NCBI GenBank assembly: GCA_022360055.1
Contig: JAKSDO010000035.1
Span: forward strand, 1 to 41,829
Direction of reading: 5' to 3'
Origin: Cytophagales bacterium
Lineage (GTDB): Bacteria; Bacteroidota; Bacteroidia; Cytophagales; Cyclobacteriaceae
Length of the DNA stretch: 41,829 bases
Shown here: piece by piece, positions 1 through 16,388 of the stretch
Layout: each line of letters begins with the position of its first letter
Position numbering within the stretch: position 1 is the first letter of the stretch
The notes under the pieces: model-generated
Database searches by the model: none
What the model was told of the DNA's origin: nothing
The model's input: only the letters and a program-made list of their open reading frames with translations
Program-made: the position numbers and the translations under genes

Positions 1-746
1 ATATAATAGTTCCCGGATTTCCAAGCATTATCACCTTGTATGGGTGCGGGGGTCATGTTGTTGTCATTAACAGCACCAACCTTGATAGATGCGGTAAACG
101 AGTGGGAATTCTCGCTATCGAAAGTATGTGTGTGAAGCATCACTATTACTTTCTTGTTGCCTCCAGTCACTTCGGTATCGGCAATATTGTCAGATTCATA
201 AACCAAAGCCACCAGCATTCCAGCCAACGAGGTATTGTCAGTTACCTTACCTGAAATAGAAATCTCCTCTCCATTAGCATAGGTTTGCCCGTTTGTCGGA
301 GCTGATGAAATATTTAATATTGGAGCTTCTTCATCAGCCAGTTCTTCAAGAGTTATTTCCTCTTCGACCGATGTGGAGTTTCCTTCCTGATCGATTACTG
401 TCAGATGAAAATGATATTCACCGGCTACCGCGGTTGCAGGAATATCAATGTGCTTGTGGAAGGTGGCATTTTTTTGCCCGGTATAGTCGGTATATTCAGC
501 CTCAATTTCATCGCCCGAACCGTCTTCTTTATGGATTTCAACAGTGATCACATCTATTCTTCCATCGGCAATAATTTCCGCTTCCATGTGCATATCACTA
601 CCGATATATGCTATTCGGCTATTGCCTATGCCTAATTCTAGTTCACCAATAACTGGTTTCGGAACAACGTCTTCTTTTTCGCAGGAGGTAAAAAATAATC
701 CTGCGGTAATTATTGCAGCAAACAATACTCTTCTTGTTTTCTTCAT
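1..746 (-). CDS. DUF4625-type lipoprotein, 3' end outside window
   Basis: The frame runs without a stop from an ATG at 746 to the left edge, so about 248 residues are visible and the C-terminus is missing. The start reads MKKTRRVLFAAIITAGLFFT followed by SCEKED, a lipoprotein signal with the lipid-bearing Cys after residue 20. Residues of about 55-135 match the DUF4625 pattern: MHMEAEI, DVITVEIH, then HKHIDIPATAVAGEYHFHLT. A second Ig-like segment begins near APILNISSAPTNGQTY. It lies 37 bp downstream of the TonB receptor on the same strand, so the two are probably co-transcribed. Its many His residues would suit a metal-binding surface lipoprotein, but that role is inferred. Confidence 0.75.
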   Translation of the reverse strand, partial: MKKTRRVLFAAIITAGLFFTSCEKEDVVPKPVIGELELGIGNSRIAYIGSDMHMEAEIIADGRIDVITVEIHKEDGSGDEIEAEYTDYTGQKNATFHKHIDIPATAVAGEYHFHLTVIDQEGNSTSVEEEITLEELADEEAPILNISSAPTNGQTYANGEEISISGKVTDNTSLAGMLVALVYESDNIADTEVTGGNKKVIVMLHTHTFDSENSHSFTASIKVGAVNDNNMTPAPIQGDNAWKSGNYY

Positions 747-783
747 TTTAAAATTTAAATAGTTATACATAAAATCGTTTTAG

Positions 784-3228
784 TTATATTTTTATTGAAA
801 ACGGTATGGCAATGTTCAGAATGAAATTCCGTCCCGCCTCTGGTACATTGATCAATCGATAAAAGCTGGTGTGGTTAAAGTATTTGGTGTTAAACAGGTT
901 TTGCACCTGCAGCGAAATGCTAAGGTTGCGATCTTGCATCTTCACATCCCCCCCTAGTCCAAGGTTTACTACCTGGTATCCTTCAGTAACCTCTTCGGGA
1001 GGCACAATGCGCGTCTGAGAAGCGGCTATCTTATAGTCCAAAGACATATAGATATTTTCCAGAAATTTCCATTTATTCTTTTCATACCTCAGGTTGAAAA
1101 TGACAGACGCAGGAGGTGAAAAGGGGAGCGTAAATCCCTTCTTTTTGCCTGACAGCTGCTCTGCATAAACATACTCACCCACCAGGCCAAACCTTAATGG
1201 ATCGATGATCCGGTAGTGAGCATGTATTTCGCCTCCATAGCGCAGTACCTTGGTCTGGGAATAGTAGAACACCTGATTGCCGTTGCCATATAAGCGGTCG
1301 TGTTCCGAAGTTGGGTTGAGGTAGATATAGTTGGGAAAATAATTTGCAAAAGGAGTAAGCCCAAAGGCGAGCCTTTCAGCGCTATATTCCAGCCCAGCAT
1401 CTAATTGGTAGGCAACTTCCGGAGAGAGATCCGGGTCGCCTACTTCAAAGCTAAAACGATGATAGTTCACGCCATTGGCACCGAGCTCCTGAGCAATGGG
1501 CATACGGAAGCTCTTCCCAATATTGGTTTTGAAAGACCAATTTTTATGATTGTAGTTGTACCCGACAGACCAAGATACATTAGAAAAGTCCCTATCCAGG
1601 TCATCAGCTCGTTGCAAGTACTGGTAAGTAGTGTCTGTTCCTGAAACAACCGGTGAAGTAAACCAATCATGGTACCTTTCTATTTGGATGTTTCCATAAT
1701 CGTATCGTAAGCCGACTTGCAAGGTGCTTTTTTCTGTGATGCCATGTTTGACCAAGGCAAAACTGCCCAAATTGAATTGACGAAATGCCGGGATGATAAA
1801 ACCATGACCATTGATTGCATTGTCCTGATATGCGCTGTTAATGCCAAAAGTAAAGGATGTCTTGTTGGTTTTGAAGTATGCGCCTTCTACATTGGCAGAA
1901 AACACATATTTGTCAAATTGTCTGTCTAAATCAGGAGCGAAGTTTGCTTCACCCTGATAAGTAGCCGGCATATAACCATGAGCAACATATTGGCTCAGTT
2001 CTTGCCGGAAATTTCGTTGAAAACCTAATTCACTTTTCAATTCATACTTGCTCCAATTGCGTTGTGTTCTATTGATTATCTTGAAGTGGTTGACTTGTTG
2101 GTAGGGATACTGTATGTCCCTGTCAGATCGGTCATGAAGATCTGTATCTACATTTCTGGGCTCTAGTCCATAAGCATTGGCAAAAAAACCGCTTTTAACC
2201 CTGATGTTACTGACGTAGAACCTACTTTGAAATGCAGGTTTTACATATCCAAATGAAAAGTGCAGGTCATGTTCGTTGCCGGCTGTATTGCGCAACTGAT
2301 TGTTATAGAGAGGTGCCCGGTAAGAATAAATATCCACGCTATCAGTCGGCACTTTATAGTCACCATAGTCCAGTAGTGTGGCACGAAAAGTAGTAAAAAG
2401 ATGACCCTTTCTGCCAGCCAGAGCAATGGATGTTCCCAACAGATTATTGTTGGTTTTTCCTGTGAGATCAACTGTTCCTGTGAAAGTGTTTTGCTCGGGC
2501 AACCGGTTTTGTTTAACATCTATCACTCCGCCAATGGCATCTGATCCATACCTAAGCGAAGAAGGTCCTTTGATTACTTCTACATTGTCCACGGCATATT
2601 GATCGATCTCCAGTCCATGCTCTACGCCCCACTGCTGGCCTTCGTGCTTGATACCGTTTTCCACTACCACCACCCTGTTGAACCCCAATCCCCGAATCAC
2701 AGGTTTCGACTGCCCAGAGCCTATGTCTATAGTTGTGACACCGGCCAACCTGTCAAGTGACTGCATCAGGCTGCCGCCTTGGTTCTGTATGAGGAAGTCG
2801 CTGTCCACAATTTCCATGCTGAGCGGCACTTCATTTTTACGCTGCTCCACATGATCATCTGAAACCACTACTTCGCTGAGGGTCATCATCTTTCGAGTCA
2901 TCAGAATGTTCATCTCCACATCCTCTTGCAGGGAAATGTGCTTATGGTAATCTTCATAGCCGACACTAGAAAAAACCAGGGTGTATTCCTTTTTACAAAG
3001 CTTATCCAGCAAAAATTTTCCATGTTCATCGGCCACAACTCCATTCTTTGTGTTTTTAATCATTACTGTGGCAAACGAGATGGGCTGCTTGGTTTCCGCG
3101 TCCAGGATACTGCCGTGGATTTTATAGATGCAGGAGTTTGAAAATTGCCTGGCTTCGGTAGAATGGGCATAACAACATCCCCAAAAAAGAATCCAGCTAA
3201 ACAGAGCATATATCTTCATGCTGTTCAT
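784..3228 (-). CDS. TonB-dependent outer-membrane receptor (probable zinc/metal uptake)
   Basis: This 814-residue protein has a signal peptide, then a CarboxypepD_reg-like domain at about residues 35-110 (IHGSILDAETKQPISFATVM). A plug domain follows at about 125-245, with IRGLGFNRVVVVENGIKHEG and VEVIKGPSSLRYGSDAIGGV, and then a beta-barrel to the C-terminus. The ending SFYRLINVPEAGRNFILNIA is typical of TonB receptors. Length fits the family. The plug resembles the ZnuD-like receptor group more than siderophore receptors. It lies leftward of the two Fur-family-like boxes at 3964-4016 and opposite a COG0523 operon, so zinc is the best guess for substrate. The substrate is inferred; the receptor assignment is secure. 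The second Met (MKIYALF, 3219) is an alternative start. Confidence 0.88.
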   Translation of the reverse strand: MNSMKIYALFSWILFWGCCYAHSTEARQFSNSCIYKIHGSILDAETKQPISFATVMIKNTKNGVVADEHGKFLLDKLCKKEYTLVFSSVGYEDYHKHISLQEDVEMNILMTRKMMTLSEVVVSDDHVEQRKNEVPLSMEIVDSDFLIQNQGGSLMQSLDRLAGVTTIDIGSGQSKPVIRGLGFNRVVVVENGIKHEGQQWGVEHGLEIDQYAVDNVEVIKGPSSLRYGSDAIGGVIDVKQNRLPEQNTFTGTVDLTGKTNNNLLGTSIALAGRKGHLFTTFRATLLDYGDYKVPTDSVDIYSYRAPLYNNQLRNTAGNEHDLHFSFGYVKPAFQSRFYVSNIRVKSGFFANAYGLEPRNVDTDLHDRSDRDIQYPYQQVNHFKIINRTQRNWSKYELKSELGFQRNFRQELSQYVAHGYMPATYQGEANFAPDLDRQFDKYVFSANVEGAYFKTNKTSFTFGINSAYQDNAINGHGFIIPAFRQFNLGSFALVKHGITEKSTLQVGLRYDYGNIQIERYHDWFTSPVVSGTDTTYQYLQRADDLDRDFSNVSWSVGYNYNHKNWSFKTNIGKSFRMPIAQELGANGVNYHRFSFEVGDPDLSPEVAYQLDAGLEYSAERLAFGLTPFANYFPNYIYLNPTSEHDRLYGNGNQVFYYSQTKVLRYGGEIHAHYRIIDPLRFGLVGEYVYAEQLSGKKKGFTLPFSPPASVIFNLRYEKNKWKFLENIYMSLDYKIAASQTRIVPPEEVTEGYQVVNLGLGGDVKMQDRNLSISLQVQNLFNTKYFNHTSFYRLINVPEAGRNFILNIAIPFSIKI

Positions 3229-3516: not shown

Positions 3517-3933
3517 TCAGCCTAGTTTGGGAGGGGGTAAATACATCTCCAAATCTGGCGGAGAATAGAGCATGAGATAGTGGGAAAAGCGGTTCAGTGT
3601 AGAAACCGCACTTAATAGAACTGTCTGAATCGAATGATCGTCTTGAAAAAATAACGCTGGGAAAAAGTAAACGAAGCCCATCATCCTTTCTAGTATCGCT
3701 TCCTGCTGCTCGGGCATCATTTCTTCAAGTAAGCAACTTGCCTGACAAGATTTAGCATGGAGCAGAACTTGTTGGCACTCCTCTATATGTTTGTCAAAAT
3801 TTAATTGGAACATCATCAAAGTGATGAACGGACCGAAGACATTCAAAAGCACAGTTACGACTAATGGTACAATATACCATTTGGTTCGGCTTGTCTTATT
3901 TGAATAAAAATCTGCTTTTGACAAGGTTATCAT
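3517..3933 (-). CDS. small membrane-anchored protein of zinc-type locus
   Basis: A 138-residue protein of no family I can name. Residues 19-42 form a transmembrane segment (WYIVPLVVTVLLNVFGPFIT). A Cys-rich helical region follows (ECQQVLLHAKSCQASC), then a second hydrophobic patch (MMGFVYFFPALFF) and a proline-rich end (SPPDLEMYLPPPKLG). Small proteins with an N-terminal membrane anchor, Cys residues and a C-terminal PPP motif are common just upstream of Bacteroidota metal-type TonB receptors. That is context, not proof of homology. Its start lies 31 bp from the first Fur-family-like box, so it is the first gene of the leftward operon. The Cys cluster could bind metal in the periplasm (inference). 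Confidence 0.6.
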   Translation of the reverse strand: MITLSKADFYSNKTSRTKWYIVPLVVTVLLNVFGPFITLMMFQLNFDKHIEECQQVLLHAKSCQASCLLEEMMPEQQEAILERMMGFVYFFPALFFQDDHSIQTVLLSAVSTLNRFSHYLMLYSPPDLEMYLPPPKLG

Positions 3934-3963
3934 GCCGCAAAATTAATCCACTTAGTTTTTAGA

Positions 3964-3978
3964 TGCAACAGTGTTGCA
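3964..3978. promoter_or_regulatory. Fur-family (Zur-like) operator box 1
   Basis: The 15 bases TGCAACAGTGTTGCA are a perfect 7-1-7 palindrome (TGCAACA-G-TGTTGCA), the geometry typical of Fur-family operators. The box overlaps the -33 element of the rightward promoter and the -7 element of the leftward promoter. The content of the flanking genes (COG0523 GTPase, DUF1826, receptor) makes Zur the most likely ligand; this is inferred. Confidence 0.65.
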
Positions 3979-4006
3979 AATATAGTTGAAGTCTTTATAT
4001 TTGCAA
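3974..4006. promoter_or_regulatory. mirror-image divergent Bacteroidota-type promoters
   Basis: On the plus strand TTG at 3974-3976 is followed, after 19 bases, by TATATTTG at 3996-4003, an exact match to TAnnTTTG. On the minus strand TTG at 4006-4004 is followed, after 19 bases, by TATATTTG at 3984-3977. The two promoters face across each other through a perfect 11-bp inverted repeat (TTGCAAATATA, 11-base spacer, TATATTTGCAA). Transcription starts would fall near 4010 rightward and near 3970 leftward, inside or beside the operator boxes. Confidence 0.65.
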
Positions 4007-4016
4007 CTGTGTTGCG
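4002..4016. promoter_or_regulatory. Fur-family (Zur-like) operator box 2
   Basis: TGCAACTGTGTTGCG matches box 1 at 13 of 15 positions and keeps 5 of 7 paired positions of the 7-1-7 palindrome. It starts 38 bp from the start of box 1. It overlaps the rightward -7 element and the leftward -33 element, so occupancy of both boxes would block both promoters. Confidence 0.55.
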
Positions 4017-4035
4017 TTTATTAATAACCTATACC

Positions 4036-4101
4036 ATGAAAAACCACTGCCCTATGGGCAATTCCCAAAATGAATTCTCCATTACGTATTATTTAAAATA
4101 G
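4036..4101 (+). CDS. 21-codon leader ORF with His and Cys
   Basis: An ATG at 4036 opens a 21-residue frame starting MKNHCPMGNSQNEFS and ending at TAG, 14 bases before the GTPase start. It lies in the predicted 5' leader of the rightward operon. The first residues include His4 and Cys5. It could be a leader peptide, a very small metal-binding protein, a remnant or chance; the sequence alone does not decide. Confidence 0.3.
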   Translation: MKNHCPMGNSQNEFSITYYLK

Positions 4102-4115
4102 AAAATCTGTGTAGA

Positions 4116-5330
4116 ATGTTTGGAAAAAAGAAGTTACCTGTAACAGTACTAAGCGGATTTCTAGGAGCCGGAAAAACCACCTTACTCAATCATGTGCTGA
4201 ATAATCGGGAAGGCCTGAAGGTAGCAGTCATCGTGAACGATATGAGCGAAGTCAACATTGACGAAAAGTTGATTGCCCATGGAGCACAGCTATCCAGAAC
4301 GGATGAGAAATTGGTAGAAATGAGTAATGGCTGTATTTGCTGCACCTTGCGAGAAGACCTAATGATTGAGGTAGAAAAACTGGCCAAAATGAACAAGTTT
4401 GATTACCTGCTCATAGAAAGCACGGGAATCTCGGAGCCTGTTCCAGTTGCACAAACTTTCTCATTTGCCACCGGTGATGAGCTATATGACCTTACCAAGG
4501 TGAGTAAACTGGACACAATGGTAACTGTAGTGGATGCATTCAATTTTTTCAAGGATTTTGGAAGCGCAGATACCATTGTTGATCGCAATATGGCAAGCGA
4601 TAAGGTAGATAATAGATCTATTGTGAACTTATTGACCGATCAGGTAGAGTTTGCCAATGTCATTATTCTCAATAAATCTGATTTAGTTACCAATGAGCAA
4701 TTAGGATTGCTGGAAAAAACCTTGCACAAGCTAAATCCCACGGCAAAGATCATTCGCACCACACACAGTAAAGTTAACCCAAAAGAAATCCTTAATACGG
4801 GACTATTTGATTATGAGATTGCAGCACAGGCGGCTGGTTGGCAAAAAGAGTTGGAGTTAGCACAAAAAGGAATAGCCCACAGTCCGGAAACAGAAGAGTA
4901 TGGGATCAGCTCATTTGTTTATCAAAACTCAAGGCCGTTCCACCCACAGCGATTTCTGGAATATGTCAGTAGGAATTTTCCCACCACCATCATCCGAAGC
5001 AAAGGCATATTCTGGATTGCCTCGCGTCCAGACAAAGCCATCTTATGGAGTCAAGCAGGTGGCTCTCTTAAAGCAGAGATTTATGGCCGCTGGTGGGCAA
5101 GCGTATCCATAAAGCAACGCGCAATGCGTCAGGATTACCTTGAAAATCAGGAATACATTCAAGCCAAATGGGATAAGCAATGGGGCGATCGGATGAATGA
5201 GTTGGTGTTCATTGGCCAGGACATGGATAAAGGGAAAATTAGTACCGATCTAAATAGGTGCTTATTGACAGACCTCGAGATTGCCGGTATGGAAGCTGGA
5301 AATAGATTTCTAGATGAATGGCCGATATGA
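4116..5330 (+). CDS. COG0523-family GTPase, candidate zinc metallochaperone
   Basis: This 404-residue G3E GTPase has Walker A GFLGAGKTT at residues 14-22, the metal-site motif CICC at 73-76, ESTGISEP, the NKSD specificity motif, and a C-terminal CobW_C-type domain (FHPQRFLEYV, IFWIASRPD, QAGG). Length is normal for the family. COG0523 members of the ZigA/YeiR/ZNG1 type deliver zinc to client proteins and are often under Zur control; others serve cobalamin or nitrile hydratase maturation. No such genes are nearby, while zinc-type boxes and a DUF1826 gene are. It starts 100 bp after box 2 and its stop overlaps the next start as ATGA, implying translational coupling. The family is clear; the zinc role is inferred from context. 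Confidence 0.9.
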   Translation: MFGKKKLPVTVLSGFLGAGKTTLLNHVLNNREGLKVAVIVNDMSEVNIDEKLIAHGAQLSRTDEKLVEMSNGCICCTLREDLMIEVEKLAKMNKFDYLLIESTGISEPVPVAQTFSFATGDELYDLTKVSKLDTMVTVVDAFNFFKDFGSADTIVDRNMASDKVDNRSIVNLLTDQVEFANVIILNKSDLVTNEQLGLLEKTLHKLNPTAKIIRTTHSKVNPKEILNTGLFDYEIAAQAAGWQKELELAQKGIAHSPETEEYGISSFVYQNSRPFHPQRFLEYVSRNFPTTIIRSKGIFWIASRPDKAILWSQAGGSLKAEIYGRWWASVSIKQRAMRQDYLENQEYIQAKWDKQWGDRMNELVFIGQDMDKGKISTDLNRCLLTDLEIAGMEAGNRFLDEWPI

Positions 5331-5995
5331 GTTTGTTTACATCCATTCCTTTTCTAAAGAACAGGCGAAGAATTCCCCGGCAAATAATCAGTGATTCATG
5401 GGCTGATCGAGATAAGATTCTGAATAATGATGTGAATTTGTTTTGCTGGAAGAGGCCAGTCAATCCGGAGATTCAGGACTTTCTGGCACAACTAATTGAC
5501 CATCAGCCTGCACCCATTTCATTTCGCGCATCTGTTCAAAACCTGAGGCAACAAATCGACCACACAAAACAACCATGGTATCTAGAGACTTTTGGAGATG
5601 GATTTCATGCTTTTTGGGCAGATATAGAGCTGCTTGCAGGAGATTTTATCGCCTTTTCCCAAACAGGACAGGGTACTGTTCATCTCAAAATGGTAACTGA
5701 CGATGCCTGTGCCAAATTCCATATAGACGCATACAAACTGCGGCTCTTTACTACTTACAATGGGAAGGGAACGGAATGGATTCCGGAAATAGTCACTAAT
5801 AGGAGGTCATTGGGAAGAACCAATGATTTAATTGTCAAAGACCCATCACAGATTCAACGAATGGAGTCCTTCGAAGTCGGTATTTTAAAAGGCGAACCAC
5901 ACGGAGGCAATATGAATGTAAAAGGAATTGTCCACCGGTCGCCGGAGATCTCTTCTACAGGAGCAAATCGAATCATTTTAAGAATAGATATATGA
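5327..5995 (+). CDS. DUF1826 family protein
   Basis: About 222 residues from ATG 5327 (MSLFTSIPF). I prefer this start to the ATG nine bases upstream because it makes an ATGA overlap with the GTPase stop, exactly like the next junction. The conserved DUF1826 core is visible as KFHIDAYKLRLFTTYNGKG followed by TEWIPE, and later GEPHGGNMNVKGIVHRSP. DUF1826 genes are known companions of zinc-linked COG0523 genes in several phyla; the biochemical role is unknown. The paired His/Asp and the late His residues could be metal ligands (inference). No signal peptide is seen, so it is probably cytoplasmic and may work with the GTPase. Confidence 0.82.
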   Translation: MSLFTSIPFLKNRRRIPRQIISDSWADRDKILNNDVNLFCWKRPVNPEIQDFLAQLIDHQPAPISFRASVQNLRQQIDHTKQPWYLETFGDGFHAFWADIELLAGDFIAFSQTGQGTVHLKMVTDDACAKFHIDAYKLRLFTTYNGKGTEWIPEIVTNRRSLGRTNDLIVKDPSQIQRMESFEVGILKGEPHGGNMNVKGIVHRSPEISSTGANRIILRIDI

Positions 5996-6261
5996 GCAAA
6001 ATCCCGGTACATATTATAACTGGCTTTCTAGGCGCAGGTAAAACAACATTCCTCAACCATTTTATCAAGGAGCGCCTGCCTGAACGCATTTTCGTAATAG
6101 AAAATGAGTGTGGAGCCACTAGTATAGACGGTGCCCTGGTAATGGATGGAGTAGAAGAGATTGTGGAGCTGGCGGCCGGTTGCCTTTGTTGCTCGCTCGC
6201 AGATGAGTTGCTGGATGTGTTGGAAGAGGTCTCGAAAAAAAGTATTCGAAAAGATGTTTAA
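5992..6261 (+). pseudogene. N-terminal stub of a second COG0523 GTPase
   Basis: Only 89 residues, but they carry an intact Walker A (GFLGAGKTT, residues 11-19), the switch region (IENECGATSIDGAL) and the metal motif CLCC at 64-67. The family needs 300 or more residues for the rest of the G domain and the C-terminal domain. Only 83 bases separate this stop from the next gene, so the remainder has been deleted rather than merely frameshifted. It differs from the full-length GTPase at 4116 and is not a local copy of it. It is still joined to DUF1826 by an ATGA overlap and has no internal stop, so it may be expressed as a short protein. Pseudogene is the default reading. Confidence 0.75.
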
Positions 6262-6344
6262 TCGCCACTTAATGGATGAGTATGCTTGAAGGTTGTGGCA
6301 CACATCACCTTTTTCAGGTTTCAAATTAATATAATTATAGAACT

Positions 6345-6806
6345 ATGATCACAACAAAAGAAGTAGAAAATGCCCAGAATGCCTGGGGAGAAGGAGTCGT
6401 TAAAATTGGCGGGCTCAAAGATCAACGGGGACAGTGCGAATCGTACTCAAAGGAGTTTATTGATAAGCACTATGATTTCCAAAATAAGGAGGTACTATTT
6501 AAACCTACCAAGACGTCTGTTCGTCAATTCAGACCCACGAAAGAAGGAGCTTTGTCTTATTTTATCGGTGGAAATGCAGAGTATCCTGAAGATAAAGGAT
6601 TTGCCCTACAACCATGGACAAAAGTCCGGTTCGAAAATGCAGCACTTATCTTGGAGGAAAATCGAGCTTTGGCAATGGGTAACTATTTCTTTACCGATTT
6701 GAATGGAGGGGAAACAAAAGTTGAGTTCACATTTGGATATACCAAAGATGAGAATGGGAAACTTCGAATAGATCTCCATCATTCATCATTACCGTTTAAT
6801 CCGTAG
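6345..6806 (+). CDS. COG4337 / iota-class carbonic anhydrase homologue
   Basis: A 153-residue protein that I recognise as one COG4337 domain (NTF2/SnoaL-like fold). Visible signatures are VLFKPTKTSVRQF, the core ALSYFIGG (to residue 76), EDKGFALQPWTKVRFENA (82-99), AMGNYFFTD (110-118) and the terminal KLRIDLHHSSLPFNP with HHSS at 145-148. Iota carbonic anhydrases, described in diatoms, cyanobacteria and proteobacteria, hydrate CO2. Members have been reported active with manganese or with no metal. The eukaryotic proteins carry several copies of the domain; this one has one, as in bacteria. No signal peptide is seen. It is the last gene of the rightward operon, 83 bp after the truncated GTPase. 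Replacement of zinc-dependent carbonic anhydrases during zinc shortage is the inferred role. Activity cannot be judged from sequence. Confidence 0.75.
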   Translation: MITTKEVENAQNAWGEGVVKIGGLKDQRGQCESYSKEFIDKHYDFQNKEVLFKPTKTSVRQFRPTKEGALSYFIGGNAEYPEDKGFALQPWTKVRFENAALILEENRALAMGNYFFTDLNGGETKVEFTFGYTKDENGKLRIDLHHSSLPFNP

Positions 6807-7017: not shown

Positions 7018-7785
7018 TCAGGCGCTGACTTGAGACATAAGAAAAAACATCTCAGTAGCTATCTGCTTGCATCGCTCGTCATATTTGGCGGATTCATAAT
7101 CAGTGCCATCAGCCACCTTAGGATCTTCGTAGGTTATGGGAACTCTTAAACTTGCCCCCGGAATGAACGGACAGTTTTGATCCGCATCTGAACAGGTCAT
7201 AATAGCTGCAAAGTTTTCCTTTGGATTGTATTTGCCATCATATTTTTTCGAGAAGCAATCCATAGCGGGGCCACTGTCACCGAAGGTTACTTTGTAATGT
7301 GGATTTTCTCCTCCTGGATTTTCAACCTTGAATCCAGCCCTTTCTATTGCCGCAACAGCCCTTGGATTGAATGCGGTTGCTTCCGTACCGCCCGAAAATG
7401 TAAATATATTGTCTTCCACATTGTAATAATTTGCAGCGGTGGCAGCCCATATCTGGCTCAGATGGCTTCTGCGACTGTTATGTGTACAAATAAAAATCAG
7501 GTTGGCCGATTCATTGGAGTTCTTTTTTGTGTCGATGTACAATGCAACTTTTTTAAGCTGATTTTTGCGCTCTTCCGGTATTTGATCAACCTGAGACTTA
7601 ATATCTTCGATATATTTTTCTAGCGATGTGTATAATTCCATATTTGACTCTTTTTTTATTTCTTCTGTTTTCGATTCGGATGTTGATTTAACCTCTGCTT
7701 TTAATTGACCTGGATTACTCTTATTGTTTGAACATGACCATCCAATTAGGAGGATAAGTACCACAATGAAATTTGTTGTTTTCAT
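7018..7785 (-). CDS. lipoprotein-anchored ArsC/LMW-phosphatase-type protein
   Basis: 255 residues. Residues 1-18 form a lipoprotein-type signal (MKTTNFIVVLILLIGWSC), followed by a low-complexity K/E/S linker to about residue 48. From Met49 the sequence is a complete thioredoxin-coupled arsenate-reductase/low-molecular-weight phosphatase domain. The P-loop is CTHNSRRS, with C100 and R106 (CX5R). The resolving pair is C198 and C205 in TCSDADQNC, spaced as in plasmid pI258 ArsC. Such enzymes reduce arsenate to arsenite in the cytoplasm, so a predicted export signal is odd. Met49 could be a second, cytoplasmic start. An ArsR regulator lies 52 bp upstream on the same strand, so the pair is probably an operon. 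Confidence 0.82.
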   Translation of the reverse strand: MKTTNFIVVLILLIGWSCSNNKSNPGQLKAEVKSTSESKTEEIKKESNMELYTSLEKYIEDIKSQVDQIPEERKNQLKKVALYIDTKKNSNESANLIFICTHNSRRSHLSQIWAATAANYYNVEDNIFTFSGGTEATAFNPRAVAAIERAGFKVENPGGENPHYKVTFGDSGPAMDCFSKKYDGKYNPKENFAAIMTCSDADQNCPFIPGASLRVPITYEDPKVADGTDYESAKYDERCKQIATEMFFLMSQVSA

Positions 7786-7837: not shown

Positions 7838-8173
7838 TTAACAGCAATCGTTTGTCGGTGGTGGATTATACCGTTCAAACATTTCATTGAATAAAAGTTT
7901 TACTTCTTCCCATTTTTCAGCATTGATACAATAGTTGACGCTTACACCTTCAATAGTGCCTTTCACAATTCCAATTTCCTTTAGTTCTCTTAAGTGCTGA
8001 CTAATCGTAGCCTGAGCCAGGCCCATTTCCTGGACCAAATCACTATTAATGCAGGCATTAATCTTAAGTAAATGAAGAATAATAGCCACTCTGGCCGGAT
8101 GTGAAAACGCCTTTGCTATCTGTGCTATTTCGTTTTGTTGATCAGTAAAAAGTTCTGTTTTAGTAAGACCCAT
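7838..8173 (-). CDS. arsR: ArsR/SmtB-family metalloregulator
   Basis: A 111-residue winged-helix repressor. FSHPARVAIILHLL and the recognition-helix region GLAQATISQHLRELKEIGIV are typical of ArsR/SmtB proteins. It lacks the classic ELCVCDL sensor (the equivalent reads ACINSDLV) but has a C-terminal Cys pair, NDCC, that could bind arsenite or another thiophilic ion. It is followed by the ArsC-like gene, and an imperfect palindrome lies 17 bp upstream of its start, which suggests autoregulation. Confidence 0.85.
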   Translation of the reverse strand: MGLTKTELFTDQQNEIAQIAKAFSHPARVAIILHLLKINACINSDLVQEMGLAQATISQHLRELKEIGIVKGTIEGVSVNYCINAEKWEEVKLLFNEMFERYNPPPTNDCC

Positions 8174-9944: not shown

Positions 9945-12900
9945 ATGAAAACTATTTTTTTTAGCTTGACAGCTTTGCTGTTTACTTTTGCCATATCCTA
10001 CGCACAACCTGTTCTTGATTTTACCGAGCCCGAAGATGATTACTTATGGGTTGATCCCGGGAGAGATAAAATTGAGCTTCAATTCAATCAGGAAGTATTC
10101 AAAGGTAGCGGAAATCTCACTGTCTTTGATGCGGAAACAGACGCGATTGTAGATCAAATTTCAGCAAATAGCAGCGATATAAACATACTGCTCGACAGCC
10201 CTGATGCGGTCTCTGTTACACTTTCTAATTCGCTCGGTGCAGACAGATCATTTTACATCCTGGCAGATCCAGGTTTTCTGAAAGATGCCGGAGATAATGA
10301 TTGGAGCGGCATTTCAAATAAAACCGTCTGGAATTTTAGTACGCGTAGTTATGATCCGTCAGGCCCTATGATCATAAGCATGAATCCGGATGCCGGAAGT
10401 GCGATGGTCGATTACGCTTCGCCTTTACAAGTGACAATTTATTTCGATAAGTTTTTATCCAAAGGATCGGGTTCAATATCCATAAAAAACCTAAATCTTG
10501 GCTCAACTGCCAGTTATGACATCAATCATGTAGATGTTAGTGTCTTAGATCAGGTGATTATAATAAGTAATGTTTCGGTTGCGGCGGACACAGAGTACAG
10601 CATTAAGTTAGATGAAGGCACCGTGGTGGATTATTTTGGAAATCAAAATGATGGAACTTCTGAACCAAATCGATACACTTTTAAAACCATACCTGCTTCA
10701 GGTCACACGCCTCCTGCAAAACTTGCAATAAAATATCCTCGTGACGACAGCCAGGAAGTTCCGGTAAATTTTGACCAGCTTAGATTAAGTTTTGATCAGG
10801 ACGTCAATATCGGTACCGGAAGTATTGATCTGTATGAGCAGTCCGGCGACAACCTTGTATCCTCATTTGATGTGTCCTTTTCGTATGCATGGAATGGAGT
10901 CGCATATGTAAATTTCTATACAAACAATTTTGAGTTGCAACCGAATACATCCTATTACATCTTAATGAATAACGGGGCTTTTAAAACCCAAAGCGATAAT
11001 AGTAATGTTGCCGGAATAAGTGATAAAACCGAATGGAATTTCACAACCGGTGATATTCCCAGACCAAATTTCACAAGTTTTGATCCGGCAGATGAGGAAA
11101 CAGGAGTGAGTATCCTTCTAAACTCATTTGAGCTTAACATTGATACGGATGGAACCTCATATTTTGACTGGGGTGGTGGCGATATTCGATTGTATCGTTC
11201 AAATGATGATCAATTGATTAAAACATTTGCTGTAAGTGACTACTCGGAAGACTTAAATGCATGGACATCCGATTTTTTTCTGCATATTGATTACTATGGC
11301 CCACAGTTATTTGATCCCAGCACTTCATATTATTTCCTGGTTGACGAAAATGTAATTGTGGATCAAAACGGGTATGGAAATATTGCAATTACAGATAAAA
11401 CCATTTGGAACTTCACAACCCAGGATCCGGATACGGACCCTCCCGTCGCTTTGTCCTTTAATCCTGATGTAAATGAAAGCAGTGTGTTCGTCGGCGTAGG
11501 TGAATTAGAGATTGACTTTGATGAACCAATTCGGTTTGGATCGTCCGGAAGCATACGATTGTACAAAGCTGCAAATGATGAACTTATTGTCGAAAGAGAC
11601 CAATATCATCCAAATATTGAGATCGACAATGATTATGGAAATCCACAGCTTGATGCAGAATTTGAAGATCTGCTGTTGGAGCCTTCCACAGCTTACTATG
11701 TTTTAATCGATGAAGGATTTCTAGTAGACGCATTTGGCAATTCTTATCCGGGCTTCAGTGATAAAACGGCATGGGTGTTTACGACGGAAGCTTCTGATCT
11801 GACAGCCCCAATCATTACCCGCTTTAGCCCGGAGGATGAAGAAGCTGATGTGGTAATATTCAATAAGCTCTTTGGGGTTTTGTTCGATGAACTGACTGTC
11901 CCAAGTATAAATGATCCTCACTTAATGCTGTACGCTGCTTCCGATGATCAATTCGTTGCTACGCTCCCGCTTTACACAGGATATGATCAGCCATCATTGG
12001 ATTTTTTTAATGGAGCAACTTCAGGATATCCATTCTTTTTTGAATTAAACGAAGTGCTTCAGGGCACGACAGATTACTACATTTTAATGGATGCGGGCCA
12101 GTTCGAGGACAGGTTTGGAGAATCATTTAGTGGAATTTCCGACAAGACGGCATGGAATTTTACAACGGAAGAACCGGAAACCACTCCGCCTCTTGCAATT
12201 TACTTCAATCCTCGATTGGATGAAACCGGGGTTCCGGTGGATGTAGGAGAATTAGAAATAAACTTTAATGAAGAAATCAAGTTTGGGAGCAGCGGTAGCA
12301 TTCGATTGTACCGGGCATCCGATGATTTACTAATTGTCGAAAGAAGAGTTGATTATCCAAATTTGGAAATAGATAATGATGATTCGAGGCTGGAAGCAAA
12401 ATTTGGGTCTTTATTATTAGAGCCATCAACCGAGTATTATGTACAAATTGATCATGGATTTATTGTGGATCTGTACGGAAATCCATATGCCGGAATAAGT
12501 GATAAAACCACATGGACATTTACGACGGAGGCATCGGACGGAAGCGCTCCAATGATAAGTGACATTATACCAATGGATGATCAAACGGATGTTTCAATTT
12601 TAGCGTCTGCATTTCTACTTGCATTCGATGAAAAAACATTTGTCGAAGTCGACAATCCGAGTATCCGGATTTATAAAAGTGATGGTGATGAATTAGTAAA
12701 AGAGGTAAAGCTTTATGGAAAGCCTGGTCCGCCGGTTGGAATTCCGGAAGGTCCGATCTTCACACCGAGATATTATTCGTTCAATGCCGGTGAAATTTTA
12801 GAGCCTTCAACGGCCTACTATATCCTGGTGGATGGCAGTCAATTTGAGGATAAATTCAAAAATTCATTTGGAGGTATATCAGACAAAGCTATATGGAATT

Positions 12901-15900
12901 TTACAACTGAAAACTCAGATGAGACCGCTCCAATTCCAAATTCATTCTACCCGGACCGGAATAGCCCGGACGTTGCGGTAACCGTTAGAGAGCTTGAAAT
13001 AGATTTCAATGAAATGATAAGGTTTGGAGAAGGTGGTAAGGTTCGTTTACATAGATCCGACAACAATGAATTGGTCGCCTCATGGACTAAGGATAATCCA
13101 AACATTGAGATCGATAATAATTACCGGTTAGATGCGGAATTTTTTGAATTGTTGGAACCTTCAACCGGATATTATGTATTGATTGACGAAGGATTTATAG
13201 TAGATATCTTTGGAAATGCCTTTGGTGGATTTAGCGACAATTCCTCATGGACTTTTACTACAACCGCGTCGGACCACCAGGCTCCGTTAATCACTTCTCT
13301 TGAGCCTACCGATAATGCTGCTGATGTGCCTATAAATCAAAATTACTTGGTAGTTACATTTGATGAACTGGTCTTCCCTGCAACTTATTCACCGGAATTA
13401 AGGCTATTTAGATCTTCAGATGATCTTTTGGTATCAAAATTACGGCTAAACGGAGATATGGCTATTAACATTCCGGACGGAGAACCAATGCCAGAAGGAT
13501 CTTCGTATTTCTTCTATTTAGAGGAGTATCTTGAGCCTTCTACCAGTTATTATATCACTATAGATCAAGATCAATTTACAGACCAATTTGGAATTCCGTT
13601 TGCTGGAATTTCTGAAAAAGACGCCTGGAATTTTGATACGGAAGCCGCTGAAACGGATCCTCCAACAATTTCTCATTACACGCCTTCGATCGGTCAATCA
13701 GGTGTCCCCCTGGTATTTAATGCACTGAATATCCAGTTTAATGAAGCTATTCAATTGACGGACAATGGAAGTCTGCGGCTATACAAAAGTTCAAATGATG
13801 GGTTGATAGTAGAAATAACAAATAGCTCAAATTCATACGTCGACAATGAAAATGAACTACAAATTTGGTTTTCCGATCTGCTGTTAGAGCCGTCCACAGA
13901 ATACTATGTATTGATTGATGATCAATTTGTAGCAGATCGATTCGGCAATGCATACGCTGGAATTCAGGATAAATCAATGTGGACATTTACTTCTCAGGAT
14001 GTAGAAACAGAAGCTCCTTCATTGAAGTACCCGATCTTTTCACCTTTCCCAGGGTCCACAGTCGGTCAGTTATCAAATATTTATGTAGGCATCTTTGGAT
14101 TTGACGAACCCGTAGTATGGGGACAGGGGAATATTTATCTACTTGACAGATCAACCGATGAGATCGTTGACCAGATTGACGTTTCAACGCTAGAATCTAC
14201 TGACATTGACAATGGAATCGGACATTACTTCAAAGTTACTTTAGAACCGGGAAAATCATATTACATTCAATTAGATCCGGGTACAATCACGGATTTGTTC
14301 GGTAATGAGCTCGTGATATTACCATTGTCGGAACAGGGAGACGAATGGTATTTCTTTACTCCTGTAGACGACGAAACCGGGCCACGTATAAGCTATGCAT
14401 ATCCGGAATTCAATGCAAAAGGAGTTGGTCTGTCCCCGGAATTTAAAATAAGTTTTGACGAAGCGATATTTCCGGGGAATGGAAAGTTAAGGATTGTAAA
14501 TGCAGGAACGCTCGAGGTGATTGAAGAATTGAGTGTGTTTGACGATAAGGTGTATGTAGATGAATATGAAATTCAAATTTATCCTCAACAATACCTTCAA
14601 GTAAATACGGATTACTATGTTGAAATTGATCGGGGTTTTACAGTGGATATGTTTGGCAATGTGTTCGGTGGAATTGCTTCTAATGTCTGGAATTTTGAAA
14701 CGGTAGAGGAAGATAATAACGCTCCGGAGGTACTTGAATTCATTCCGGAAATTGGCGAATCCAATGTATCTTTGATAACTCCTATCGGAATGGACTTTGA
14801 TGAACCTGTCAAAATTGGATCCGGGTCAATCTCCATCTTTGATGCCGGCGATGATTCCTTGGTTGGAGAATTCGATGTCACTGCAAATGGTATAATTAAT
14901 TTTGATAATGTGATTGGTACGTTACTCCCAACTGCGCTTGAGCAAGGAAAAACGTATTATGTGCTTGTTGATGAAGGTGCTGTTACAGATATCTCAGGAA
15001 ATAGCTTCGCGGGAATCAGCGACAAATCGACCTGGACATTTACAACAGAATCCGGTGTAAGTGATCATGAACCTCCCACGATTTCTTCTGTAAATCCGAC
15101 AATGATGCAAGGCGAAATATCGGTAAATACCACGGACATGGATATTGAGTTTAGTGAATACGTAGTAAAAGGAGAAGGCACCATATCAATTTATGATATT
15201 CAAGACAACCTTGTTGCAAATATAGATGTCGCCGGCGATAAGGTTTTTGCGGCTACTTCTTTCGTCAACGTAAGTATTGACGGAGTTATTGATTTCGGGA
15301 CGACGTATTATGTACTGATCTCACCGGGAGCGTTTGAAGATGCATATGGTAATGATTTCGAAGGATTGAGTAATAAGGAATCATGGACATTTGCAACCGA
15401 ATCATACAGCGGGTCAAAATCAGAGGTTATGTTTACATCTGCAAGTGCCGCTCTGGACGAAAACAATGGCACCTATCGGGTTGAATTAACATTGAATGAA
15501 GCGACCTTTGAACAAACTATTCAAATCGGTTATACTGCAAGTTCAAGTTTCTCCATGCCTGATGATTTCACTACTGATCCGTCAGAAAACCAGGATGGAA
15601 TTTTGTACATCTCTATTCCGGCCGGAACAACAAATACCGGTTTCGATTTTGATATTGTCGATGACCAAATAGCGGAGAACGGTCAGGAGATAACTTTTTC
15701 AATTCTATCCGTAGGTCAGGCATTGGAAATTGGAAGTTTTGACAAAATGGTGATTACCATCGATGACAATGATTTCATAAGAACACTGTCTTTCGAGCAA
15801 ACTTCGGCTAACATTATTGAGAATGAAGGTAGCTACACGGTAAATATTAATACGGATGACGCAGTTAGCTCGGATCAGCAATTTACTGTTTTAATAAATC

Positions 15901-16388
15901 CCGACAGTGAATTCACAAGCCCTGATGATTATGCATTAAGTCCGCCTGCTACCGGGAATGAGCTAATTATCACCATTCCAGCCGGGTCATCAACAGCATC
16001 ATTTGATATAGAAATTGAAGATGATGAGATTCATGAAAACGACGAGTCCGTTGAATTTACCCTTATAAATCCGGACGACTTGCTTACGCTAGGTCAAAAT
16101 GATTCATTCACCCTAACAGTTGTTGACAATGACGATGCTATGATAACTGCTTTGGCGGATGAATTAGTTCGATGGCAGGTATATCCAAATCCCGCTTCAA
16201 CTGTAATCAATCTGGAGGATGTCGATGAAGTTTTGATTTATAATATAAATGGAAAATTCATTGAGAGAAAAGATGTGCTGTTCAATCAGATATCTGTAAA
16301 CAATTTAAAGGACGGTCAATACATCCTTAAACTCCTTCGGGATAAAGTTGAAATCGGAAATCATAAAATATTGATATCAAAAAACTAA
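9945..16388 (+). CDS. giant secreted Ig-like repeat protein with T9SS sorting domain
   Basis: 2147 residues. A signal peptide (FTFAISYAQP near residue 22) is followed by about 15 tandem SbsA/Big_5-type Ig-like domains of about 110-130 residues. Each has the frame D/E-x-x-x-P-P near its start, ELEIDFDEPIRFGSGSI in the middle, EPSTxYYVLID, then GISDKTxWxFTTE at its end. Two Calx-beta-like domains follow (about residues 1826-1945 and 1947-2065, ending ITIDDND and VVDNDD). The C-terminus is a type IX secretion sorting domain: WQVYPNPASTVINLEDVDE, INGK, and the end GNHKILISKN. It is acidic and rich in Asp, fitting calcium binding and a surface or matrix adhesin. No enzymatic domain is seen. A strong terminator lies 22 bp downstream, so it is probably monocistronic. 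Confidence 0.9.
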   Translation: MKTIFFSLTALLFTFAISYAQPVLDFTEPEDDYLWVDPGRDKIELQFNQEVFKGSGNLTVFDAETDAIVDQISANSSDINILLDSPDAVSVTLSNSLGADRSFYILADPGFLKDAGDNDWSGISNKTVWNFSTRSYDPSGPMIISMNPDAGSAMVDYASPLQVTIYFDKFLSKGSGSISIKNLNLGSTASYDINHVDVSVLDQVIIISNVSVAADTEYSIKLDEGTVVDYFGNQNDGTSEPNRYTFKTIPASGHTPPAKLAIKYPRDDSQEVPVNFDQLRLSFDQDVNIGTGSIDLYEQSGDNLVSSFDVSFSYAWNGVAYVNFYTNNFELQPNTSYYILMNNGAFKTQSDNSNVAGISDKTEWNFTTGDIPRPNFTSFDPADEETGVSILLNSFELNIDTDGTSYFDWGGGDIRLYRSNDDQLIKTFAVSDYSEDLNAWTSDFFLHIDYYGPQLFDPSTSYYFLVDENVIVDQNGYGNIAITDKTIWNFTTQDPDTDPPVALSFNPDVNESSVFVGVGELEIDFDEPIRFGSSGSIRLYKAANDELIVERDQYHPNIEIDNDYGNPQLDAEFEDLLLEPSTAYYVLIDEGFLVDAFGNSYPGFSDKTAWVFTTEASDLTAPIITRFSPEDEEADVVIFNKLFGVLFDELTVPSINDPHLMLYAASDDQFVATLPLYTGYDQPSLDFFNGATSGYPFFFELNEVLQGTTDYYILMDAGQFEDRFGESFSGISDKTAWNFTTEEPETTPPLAIYFNPRLDETGVPVDVGELEINFNEEIKFGSSGSIRLYRASDDLLIVERRVDYPNLEIDNDDSRLEAKFGSLLLEPSTEYYVQIDHGFIVDLYGNPYAGISDKTTWTFTTEASDGSAPMISDIIPMDDQTDVSILASAFLLAFDEKTFVEVDNPSIRIYKSDGDELVKEVKLYGKPGPPVGIPEGPIFTPRYYSFNAGEILEPSTAYYILVDGSQFEDKFKNSFGGISDKAIWNFTTENSDETAPIPNSFYPDRNSPDVAVTVRELEIDFNEMIRFGEGGKVRLHRSDNNELVASWTKDNPNIEIDNNYRLDAEFFELLEPSTGYYVLIDEGFIVDIFGNAFGGFSDNSSWTFTTTASDHQAPLITSLEPTDNAADVPINQNYLVVTFDELVFPATYSPELRLFRSSDDLLVSKLRLNGDMAINIPDGEPMPEGSSYFFYLEEYLEPSTSYYITIDQDQFTDQFGIPFAGISEKDAWNFDTEAAETDPPTISHYTPSIGQSGVPLVFNALNIQFNEAIQLTDNGSLRLYKSSNDGLIVEITNSSNSYVDNENELQIWFSDLLLEPSTEYYVLIDDQFVADRFGNAYAGIQDKSMWTFTSQDVETEAPSLKYPIFSPFPGSTVGQLSNIYVGIFGFDEPVVWGQGNIYLLDRSTDEIVDQIDVSTLESTDIDNGIGHYFKVTLEPGKSYYIQLDPGTITDLFGNELVILPLSEQGDEWYFFTPVDDETGPRISYAYPEFNAKGVGLSPEFKISFDEAIFPGNGKLRIVNAGTLEVIEELSVFDDKVYVDEYEIQIYPQQYLQVNTDYYVEIDRGFTVDMFGNVFGGIASNVWNFETVEEDNNAPEVLEFIPEIGESNVSLITPIGMDFDEPVKIGSGSISIFDAGDDSLVGEFDVTANGIINFDNVIGTLLPTALEQGKTYYVLVDEGAVTDISGNSFAGISDKSTWTFTTESGVSDHEPPTISSVNPTMMQGEISVNTTDMDIEFSEYVVKGEGTISIYDIQDNLVANIDVAGDKVFAATSFVNVSIDGVIDFGTTYYVLISPGAFEDAYGNDFEGLSNKESWTFATESYSGSKSEVMFTSASAALDENNGTYRVELTLNEATFEQTIQIGYTASSSFSMPDDFTTDPSENQDGILYISIPAGTTNTGFDFDIVDDQIAENGQEITFSILSVGQALEIGSFDKMVITIDDNDFIRTLSFEQTSANIIENEGSYTVNINTDDAVSSDQQFTVLINPDSEFTSPDDYALSPPATGNELIITIPAGSSTASFDIEIEDDEIHENDESVEFTLINPDDLLTLGQNDSFTLTVVDNDDAMITALADELVRWQVYPNPASTVINLEDVDEVLIYNINGKFIERKDVLFNQISVNNLKDGQYILKLLRDKVEIGNHKILISKN
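11424..14000 (+). repeat. two-domain super-repeat inside the Ig-like protein
   Basis: Domains 5-11 of the giant protein alternate between two subtypes. Equivalent junction codons fall at 11424, 12171, 12912 and 13644, giving units of 747, 741 and 732 bp plus a final half unit. Odd domains share ELEIDF-x-E-x-IRFG and NIEIDN; even domains share AFDE/TFDEL cores and the D-Q-F-x-D-x-F segment. The pattern indicates growth by tandem duplication of a domain pair. Confidence 0.7.

Follow-up and report, generated by a model that had tools for sequence, protein, structure and literature searches.

Why should a gene for a carbonic anhydrase (CA) stand among genes for the handling of zinc? The question is raised by a stretch of 41,829 nucleotides from a Cytophagales bacterium with a 7.5-Mb genome (GCA_022360055.1, contig JAKSDO010000035.1, positions 1-41,829; the whole of this stretch is called the window here). 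Near its start, two divergent arms of genes share a control region that contains a pair of Zur-like boxes, and one of the arms includes a gene for a CA of the COG4337, or iota, class. We consider it probable, on the evidence of sequence and gene neighborhood, that this locus is a divergent, Zur-controlled zinc-starvation operon in which a metal-free iota-CA stands in for a zinc enzyme. The gene calls for the window are those of a list of open reading frames (ORFs), and families were assigned with Pfam and NCBIfam profile scans.

The iota carbonic anhydrase

Residues 2-152 of the window protein match metal-free enzymes of known structure (PDB 7c5x at 2e-88 and 7c5v at 1e-38), and its gene product matches NF047901, the NCBIfam model for metal-independent CA, at 2e-44. 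The catalytic residues T55, Y72, H145 and S147 are kept; they correspond to Thr106, Tyr124, His197 and Ser199 of all2909, by a residue offset that was derived by hand from a structure-database alignment, and none of these four positions varies among the 10 sequences aligned. According to passages in PMC8132391, mutagenesis of these four all2909 residues found them to be needed or important. Judged by homology and kept residues, the ORF at 6345-6806 is a COG4337 (iota) CA. A preliminary description of this DNA, made from its letters and reading frames, had given it this identity, which the structure matches bear out; the profile check that it proposed has been run and its "no match" outcome is excluded.

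The protein has no N-terminal leader. The ratio of nonsynonymous to synonymous change (Ka/Ks) was compared with that expected under selection for four pairings with close relatives: two give 0.05-0.06, and in the other two synonymous change is saturated. By this rough measure, with synonymous change high in the first two as well, the gene is under purifying selection. In a tree of iota-CA sequences the window protein groups with four from Cyclobacteriaceae and Saprospiraceae metagenome-assembled genomes (support 94/85, with the bootstrap not settled). Three of these four have the box, and all four have the partner gene, here called CPTD, that is discussed below.

There are zinc enzymes to be spared: the genome carries two zinc beta-CA genes, and it gave no alpha-CA match. 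Of the 80 relatives introduced below, 50 were chosen by hand for a search of their genomes; 43 of these have beta-CA and 13 have alpha-CA. Seven of the 50 (L091, L111, L127, L132, L118, L085 and L119) gave neither a beta- nor an alpha-CA match, which incompleteness could explain. The first five loci lack a box and come from genomes of 1.4-1.8 Mb, in which iota-CA is perhaps the sole such enzyme, as far as the beta and alpha classes that were searched are concerned; L085 has a box, and L119 is Desulfofustis.

Zur-like boxes in the window and the genome

Both boxes are palindromes of the TGCAACnnnGTTGCA type, and both lie inside a 25-nt inverted repeat (84%) within the control region at 3934-4115. 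Under a matrix built on the genome's other boxes, the pair scores 24.0 and 23.5 and the next-best site in the window 11.5. When up to three mismatches are allowed, the window holds 16 copies of the pattern with 18 expected, which is not above chance; the case for the boxes therefore rests on the two near-perfect copies, on the genome-wide pattern and on the relatives.

Across the genome there are 22 places where the pattern is found with no more than one mismatch; the pattern read backwards, as a control, has 7. Seven places are exact matches, and the six of these outside the window (contigs C54, C246, C249 and C285) are near MerC, ZigA remnants, FolE or TonB genes; the C249 box has a Fur-family gene within the same run of genes. 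Among the 15 places with one mismatch, four were inspected gene by gene (C170 twice, C222 and C269) and eight were screened with the seven window proteins. Contig C170 has two near-matches, the first ahead of a TonB gene and the second between this gene and a DUF4625 gene (2.4e-29), with a Fur-family gene next to them. The box on C269 falls within a gene and was taken to be a chance match. Five Fur-family genes are present in the genome. The box set may be read as a zinc (Zur) regulon, for which a Fur-family protein is the predicted repressor; a literature search for papers on Zur boxes of Bacteroidota found nothing relevant.

Two of these contigs, C54 and C246 (loci L030 and L031), carry box-led units with a MerC-type gene, truncated on C54, and with fragmentary relatives of ZigA; intact relatives occur in L055 and L084. 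A small protein with an SCFFCG/ACFFC motif is encoded beside zinc-type genes at L057:4212-4625, L171:6341-6769 and L030:2073-2516, and the L057 copy has no Pfam match.

Recurrence in relatives

Relatives were sought in GTDB 220, with each species represented by one genome; of the 244 found, the best 80 loci were kept. The box matrix was trained on seven boxes of the window's own genome that lie outside the window and had been found using the window's pattern. With this matrix, a site scoring at least 16 is present upstream of 33 of the 80 iota-CA operons and in 0 of 400 shuffles; a site is also present at 14 of the 322 remaining gene starts of these loci, which may include those of other zinc genes. 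The upstream scores are bimodal, with 34 loci at 15.6 or above and 46 at 7.9 or below. Together the 80 loci comprise 1.34 Mb, in which the core palindrome is present 57 times and its reversed-half control 0 times. That all iota-CA genes are box-regulated is ruled out, as both box and CPTD are missing from 28 of the 80 loci.

A box is found within 4 kb of iota-CA in 41 of the 80 loci, and MerC, FolE, COG0523 or DUF1826 genes within the same distance in 32. Examples of the gene order are box-MerC-FolE-iota-CA and box-MerC-FolE-COG0523-DUF1826-iota-CA; HisI is found in the zinc-type cluster of L092, and a SulP-family gene follows iota-CA in L043. The preliminary description had left it to a survey whether such a neighborhood recurs, and with zinc-type neighbors in 32 loci an outcome of no recurrence is excluded.

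The setting of the zinc beta-CA genes was compared in 20 genomes, taken from the beta-CA match list after the loci had been seen (19 of the 20 have a box at the operon). In 19 of them a box is no farther than 4 kb from iota-CA, in 1 it is that close to a zinc beta-CA, and none has a box within 400 bp upstream of beta-CA. MerC, FolE, COG0523 or DUF1826 genes are within 4 kb of iota-CA in 16 of these genomes and of beta-CA in 0. Co-occurrence with DUF1826 was counted in 395 genomes of the class, with nine weak DUF1826 matches and a fragmentary iota-CA match (G240) dropped. Three of the ten genomes with a strong DUF1826 match have iota-CA (p 0.002; two of nine, p 0.023, without the window's own genome), and six of the ten have iota-CA or the LCIB-type CA (p 1e-5; five of nine, p 9e-5, without it). 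A box is present in three of six DUF1826 loci scanned.

Plasmid loci beyond Bacteroidota

A plasmid search returned 27 records, of which ten loci were opened and their gene names taken from the annotation. In six, all alphaproteobacterial, iota-CA is found among zinc-type genes (COG0523, DUF1826, thrS or hisI). Two Thioclava loci have the order thrS-iota-CA-hisI, and a Phaeobacter locus has a GTP-binding protein followed by thrS, iota-CA and DUF1826. On a Sagittula stellata plasmid, two GTP-binding proteins, iota-CA and DUF1826 are followed by a metal ABC permease and ATPase, a repressor and ZnuA. In the Paracoccus seriniphilus locus a GTP-binding protein is encoded upstream of iota-CA, which is followed by DUF1826, and a Sphingomonas locus reads MerC-GTP-binding protein-repressor-iota-CA. 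Linkage to zur or znu genes is seen in one relative, S. stellata; in the window's own genome the box-linked Fur-family genes are on other contigs. The preliminary description had placed the association in Bacteroidota, where it is indeed present, yet these six plasmid loci make it wider.

GTTAT-type palindromes precede both Thioclava operons and the Sagittula one (three of six, counted without a shuffle control), the two thrS-iota-CA-hisI operons standing behind a GTTATATTATAAC palindrome. Phaeobacter has a weaker match, and no palindrome of this type was found before the Paracoccus and Sphingomonas operons. The plasmid palindromes resemble Caulobacter Zur sites given in a portion of PMC4176598.

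On 10 of the 25 listed plasmid matches (e.g., L213, L214, L216-L219 and L222) the RefSeq label is phosphoribosyl-AMP cyclohydrolase. In Thioclava, a separate gene annotated hisI adjoins the iota-CA gene that bears this label. The label is probably wrong and would derive from the frequent hisI neighbor; a probable mislabeling of iota-CA in RefSeq is thereby brought to light.

Layout of the locus

The features of the locus are collected in Table 1.

Table 1. Genes, boxes and promoter-like sequences at the divergent locus, by window position
Feature	Position	Strand	Evidence and remarks
DUF4625 lipoprotein	3-770	-	PF15418 2.3e-29; cut by window edge; last visible gene of the minus arm
TonB-dependent receptor	784-3228	-	PF00593 4e-29, Plug 1e-18
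138-residue ORF	3517-3933	-	C-terminus PPPKLG; first ORF of the minus arm
Zur-like box 1	3964-3978		TGCAACAGTGTTGCA; matrix score 24.0
Promoter-like pair TTGCAA-16-TATATT	3974-4001	+	first hexamer overlaps box 1; ends just before box 2
Mirror-image promoter-like pair TTGCAA-16-TATATT	3979-4006	-	consensus match only
Zur-like box 2	4002-4016		TGCAACTGTGTTGCG; matrix score 23.5; 38 bp from box 1
ZigA-like COG0523 GTPase (zinc metallochaperone family)	4116-5330	+	PF02492 (cobW) 4e-56, PF07683 (CobW_C) 8e-26
DUF1826 protein	5318-5995	+	PF08856 2.5e-44, 152.1 bits (passes gathering cut-off of 22)
Second COG0523 GTPase, N-terminal 89-residue stub	5992-6261	+	PF02492 positions 1-83 of 180
COG4337-type iota-CA, 153 residues	6345-6806	+	PDB 7c5x/7c5v, NF047901
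CPTD partner-gene stub, 38 residues	6815-6931	+	LYLVCPT near start matches start of CPTD alignment, by eye

The genes of the plus arm are closely packed: DUF1826 overlaps the COG0523 GTPase gene by 13 bp and is itself overlapped by 4 bp by the second COG0523 stub, past which iota-CA starts after 83 bp. The first GTPase scores 549.4 bits with the ZigA model NF038288, under its equivalog cut-off of 600, and is therefore called ZigA-like. A C-terminal scrap of the second COG0523 gene is found in another frame at about 6236-6289 (a second BLAST piece, E 0.01), and an intact 331-residue relative of the stub (80%) follows DUF1826 in L057; from these it appears that the second gene underwent an internal deletion. 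In the minus arm, the top NCBIfam model for the TonB receptor is TonB-hemin, of the haem family (161.8 bits, under cut-off), while the ZnuD model NF038289 gives 148.4 bits with a cut-off of 950. Pfam and NCBIfam scans of the 138-residue ORF gave no match. The plus-strand promoter-like pair would drive the plus arm and its mirror image the minus arm; such pairs, which are consensus matches only, number 10 in the region against 7.7 expected in shuffles.

All five of the gene families named in the preliminary description (TonB, DUF4625, COG0523, DUF1826 and COG4337) were found by profile searches, and its shared Fur-family-like control region corresponds to the two boxes. The extent that it gave, 3517-6806, takes in the COG0523, DUF1826 and COG4337 genes and leaves DUF4625 and the TonB receptor outside, and both stubs had been overlooked.

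A predicted zinc-starvation response and its alternatives

When zinc is sufficient, a Fur-family repressor would occupy the two boxes, which overlap both predicted promoters, and hold both arms off. When zinc is low, the minus arm would supply an outer-membrane TonB receptor and the DUF4625 lipoprotein, which would probably serve to take up zinc, free or in a complex. From the plus arm, the ZigA-like GTPase would, as its family suggests, deliver zinc to chosen clients, and DUF1826 would also be made. The cytosolic COG4337 enzyme would hydrate CO2 by Thr/Tyr/Ser/His chemistry without a metal, so that the supply of bicarbonate could go on while the two zinc beta-CAs starve. The zinc-sparing role that the preliminary description had assigned to the enzyme thus gains support from position.

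A number of observations weigh against this interpretation. At the locus itself, the 83-bp gap before iota-CA holds no box and the gene lies downstream of a broken one, so that its expression would depend on read-through, with weak terminator-like sites ahead of it at 6167-6184. The partner gene is broken, and no intact CPTD copy was found in the genome. The protein falls under the NF047901 equivalog cut-off, with 151 bits against 350 over profile positions 51-204 of 205; none of the 395 genomes of the class reaches that cut-off, and the model is perhaps tuned to leader-bearing members. Iota-CA is also rare, being found in 13 of these 395 genomes and in one of nine of the family. Elsewhere in the genome, the eight screened one-mismatch places have no relative of the seven window proteins within 1.5 kb. 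In 46 of the 80 relatives there is no box at a score of at least 15 upstream of the iota-CA operon as defined, and 4 of the 10 opened plasmid loci (Agarilytica, Asticcacaulis, Stutzerimonas and Paracoccus aestuarii) have no zinc-type gene beside iota-CA. The clusters also hold paralogues of zinc enzymes, FolE and HisI, and inspection by eye indicates that FolE has kept its zinc residues.

Other explanations can be set against the same data. A different member of the Fur family might control the operon in response to a metal other than zinc (iron or manganese), and the CA would be present for some reason other than zinc sparing. The five Fur-family genes, of which the zinc repressor is a putative member, and a TonB receptor that scores best as haem-family would suit this explanation; it is nonetheless unlikely given the MerC, COG0523, FolE and DUF1826 genes at or beside the boxes, HisI in the L092 cluster, the plasmid iota-CA beside a metal ABC transporter, repressor and ZnuA, and the two thrS-iota-CA-hisI operons behind GTTATATTATAAC. 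The operon could, instead, be a decaying remnant that is being lost in this lineage, with iota-CA as a bystander, as the broken second COG0523 and partner genes and the fragmentary ZigA relatives on C54 and C246 might suggest. We regard this as very unlikely when the iota-CA, ZigA-like and DUF1826 ORFs are intact, both boxes are near-perfect, and Ka/Ks for iota-CA is 0.05-0.06 in the two of four comparisons that are not saturated.

It is quite unlikely that in vivo the COG4337 protein is some other NTF2-like enzyme, or a binding protein, and not a CA. We know of no CA assay of a COG4337 protein in Bacteroidota, and the phosphoribosyl-AMP cyclohydrolase label on 10 of 25 listed plasmid matches points to another function, although the Thioclava hisI neighbor probably accounts for it. 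Two assayed relatives were modestly active, as described in part of PMC8132391. All four catalytic residues are kept in the window protein, however, a SulP-family gene follows iota-CA in L043, and in three genomes an LCIB-type CA replaces iota-CA among MerC, FolE or DUF1826 genes. That different CA classes occur in such operons favors the view of the iota protein as an enzyme.

The CPTD partner protein

A CPTD protein, mostly of 164-190 residues, is encoded downstream of iota-CA in 44 of the 80 loci, and in 42 of these 44 its start is no more than 40 bp from the called end of iota-CA. Box and CPTD tend to occur together (26 loci with both, 8 with box only, 18 with CPTD only and 28 with neither; Fisher p 0.0013, uncorrected for relatedness). 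Splendidivirga corallicola (L084) and Aquimarina longa (L106) are cultured examples that have iota-CA with both. Pfam and NCBIfam scans of 34 members gave scattered matches and no consistent family. With a 41-row profile, three beta-CA entries came out on top at E 2e-4 to 3.5e-4, the next match being at 0.12; because their chains are almost identical, the three amount to a single match. A 34-row profile gave E 0.04-0.07 for beta-CA, hhalign against 32 beta-CAs gave 0.3% probability and E 0.19, and three single-sequence searches found no CA. The GHxxCG stretch of beta-CA aligns with CPTD residues that lack the zinc-ligand His and second Cys, and one Cys near the CPTD N-terminus is invariant. 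CPTD would thus be an undescribed protein family with weak similarity to beta-CA and with two zinc ligands lost, and these loci provide a pointer to it and to its link with inorganic carbon.

CPTD is not exclusive to iota-CA, a possibility that is ruled out by the seven genomes of the class that have it: two near iota-CA, two by LCIB and three in a remote form. In both G085 and G307 a box is followed by an LCIB-type CA (PF18599) and then by CPTD. The LCIB gene of G210 lies beside FolE and DUF1826, with no box within the stretch examined. These are the 3 of 17 LCIB loci (1.5-kb flanks) with the CA among MerC, FolE or DUF1826 genes; the other 14 have no such setting. The remote form precedes an SbtA-like gene (PF05982) in L173 and L175 and a MoxR-type ATPase gene in L174. 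It is possible, though doubtful, that zinc starvation calls up a zinc-free bicarbonate module made up of metal-free iota-CA and CPTD, the latter a beta-CA-like protein that either forms a subunit alongside iota-CA or is itself a metal-free enzyme. In that case CPTD, given its place after the LCIB-type CA under a box and, in the remote form, before SbtA, would be a general inorganic-carbon factor.

Relation to known systems

Two precedents make the zinc-sparing role less new than the preliminary description, which was aware of none for iota-CA in a Bacteroidota operon, had supposed; one is an iota-CA of the diatom Phaeodactylum, to be considered together with ZCRP-A, which we take to be a COG0523 protein. 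The abundance of the diatom enzyme is inverse to zinc and the term "Zn sparing" is used for it in sections of Kellogg 2022 (PMC9010474), where ZCRP-A likewise falls as zinc rises. It shares the iota class with the window protein; unlike it, the diatom enzyme is eukaryotic, of a chloroplast type described as manganese-preferring, and belongs to no Zur operon in those sections. The other precedent is Cam, a gamma-class CA paralogue under Zur regulation whose gene lies in a cluster with COG0523 in beta- and gammaproteobacteria, as presented in parts of Haas 2009 (PMC2770081). There too, a CA paralogue and COG0523 are under predicted Zur control, replacement of a zinc enzyme is proposed, and DUF1826 appears in the same figure legend; Cam differs in its unrelated CA class, its suggested use of iron, its phylum and its box. 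Within the class, the LCIB-type CA of G085, G307 and G210 resembles the window enzyme in being a CA among MerC, FolE or DUF1826 genes, with box and CPTD in G085 and G307, whereas LCIB is not homologous to iota-CA.

The metal-free iota-CAs of COG4337 described in the relevant passages of PMC8132391 are all2909 of Anabaena and Bn86287 of Bigelowiella, and it is suggested there that such enzymes suit metal-poor water. The window protein is like them in sequence family, in the catalytic Thr/Tyr/His/Ser and in the HHSS motif. It is unlike them in lacking a leader and in being part of a predicted zinc-starvation operon; those passages carry nothing on zinc regulation, and the word "operon" is absent from the main text of PMC8132391. 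An open-access literature search found, among the matches listed, no printed link of a bacterial iota-CA to Zur. Such a link appears well supported by the loci described here, and would be the new element beside the known Zur-linked gamma-CA and the zinc-sparing diatom iota-CA. The presence of an iota-CA gene under apparent zinc-starvation control in both Bacteroidota and Alphaproteobacteria would be genetic evidence that zinc independence is the purpose of the enzyme, and suggests a likely physiological role for iota-CA in non-photosynthetic bacteria.

Other genes of the window

Beyond the locus, the window at 7018-7785 and 7838-8173 encodes an arsenate-reductase-like domain behind a lipoprotein-like start, beside an ArsR-family regulator. 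Further on, at 9945-16388, a protein of 2147 residues shows, by eye, numerous repeats of Ig-like appearance and a sorting-like tail at its C-terminus.

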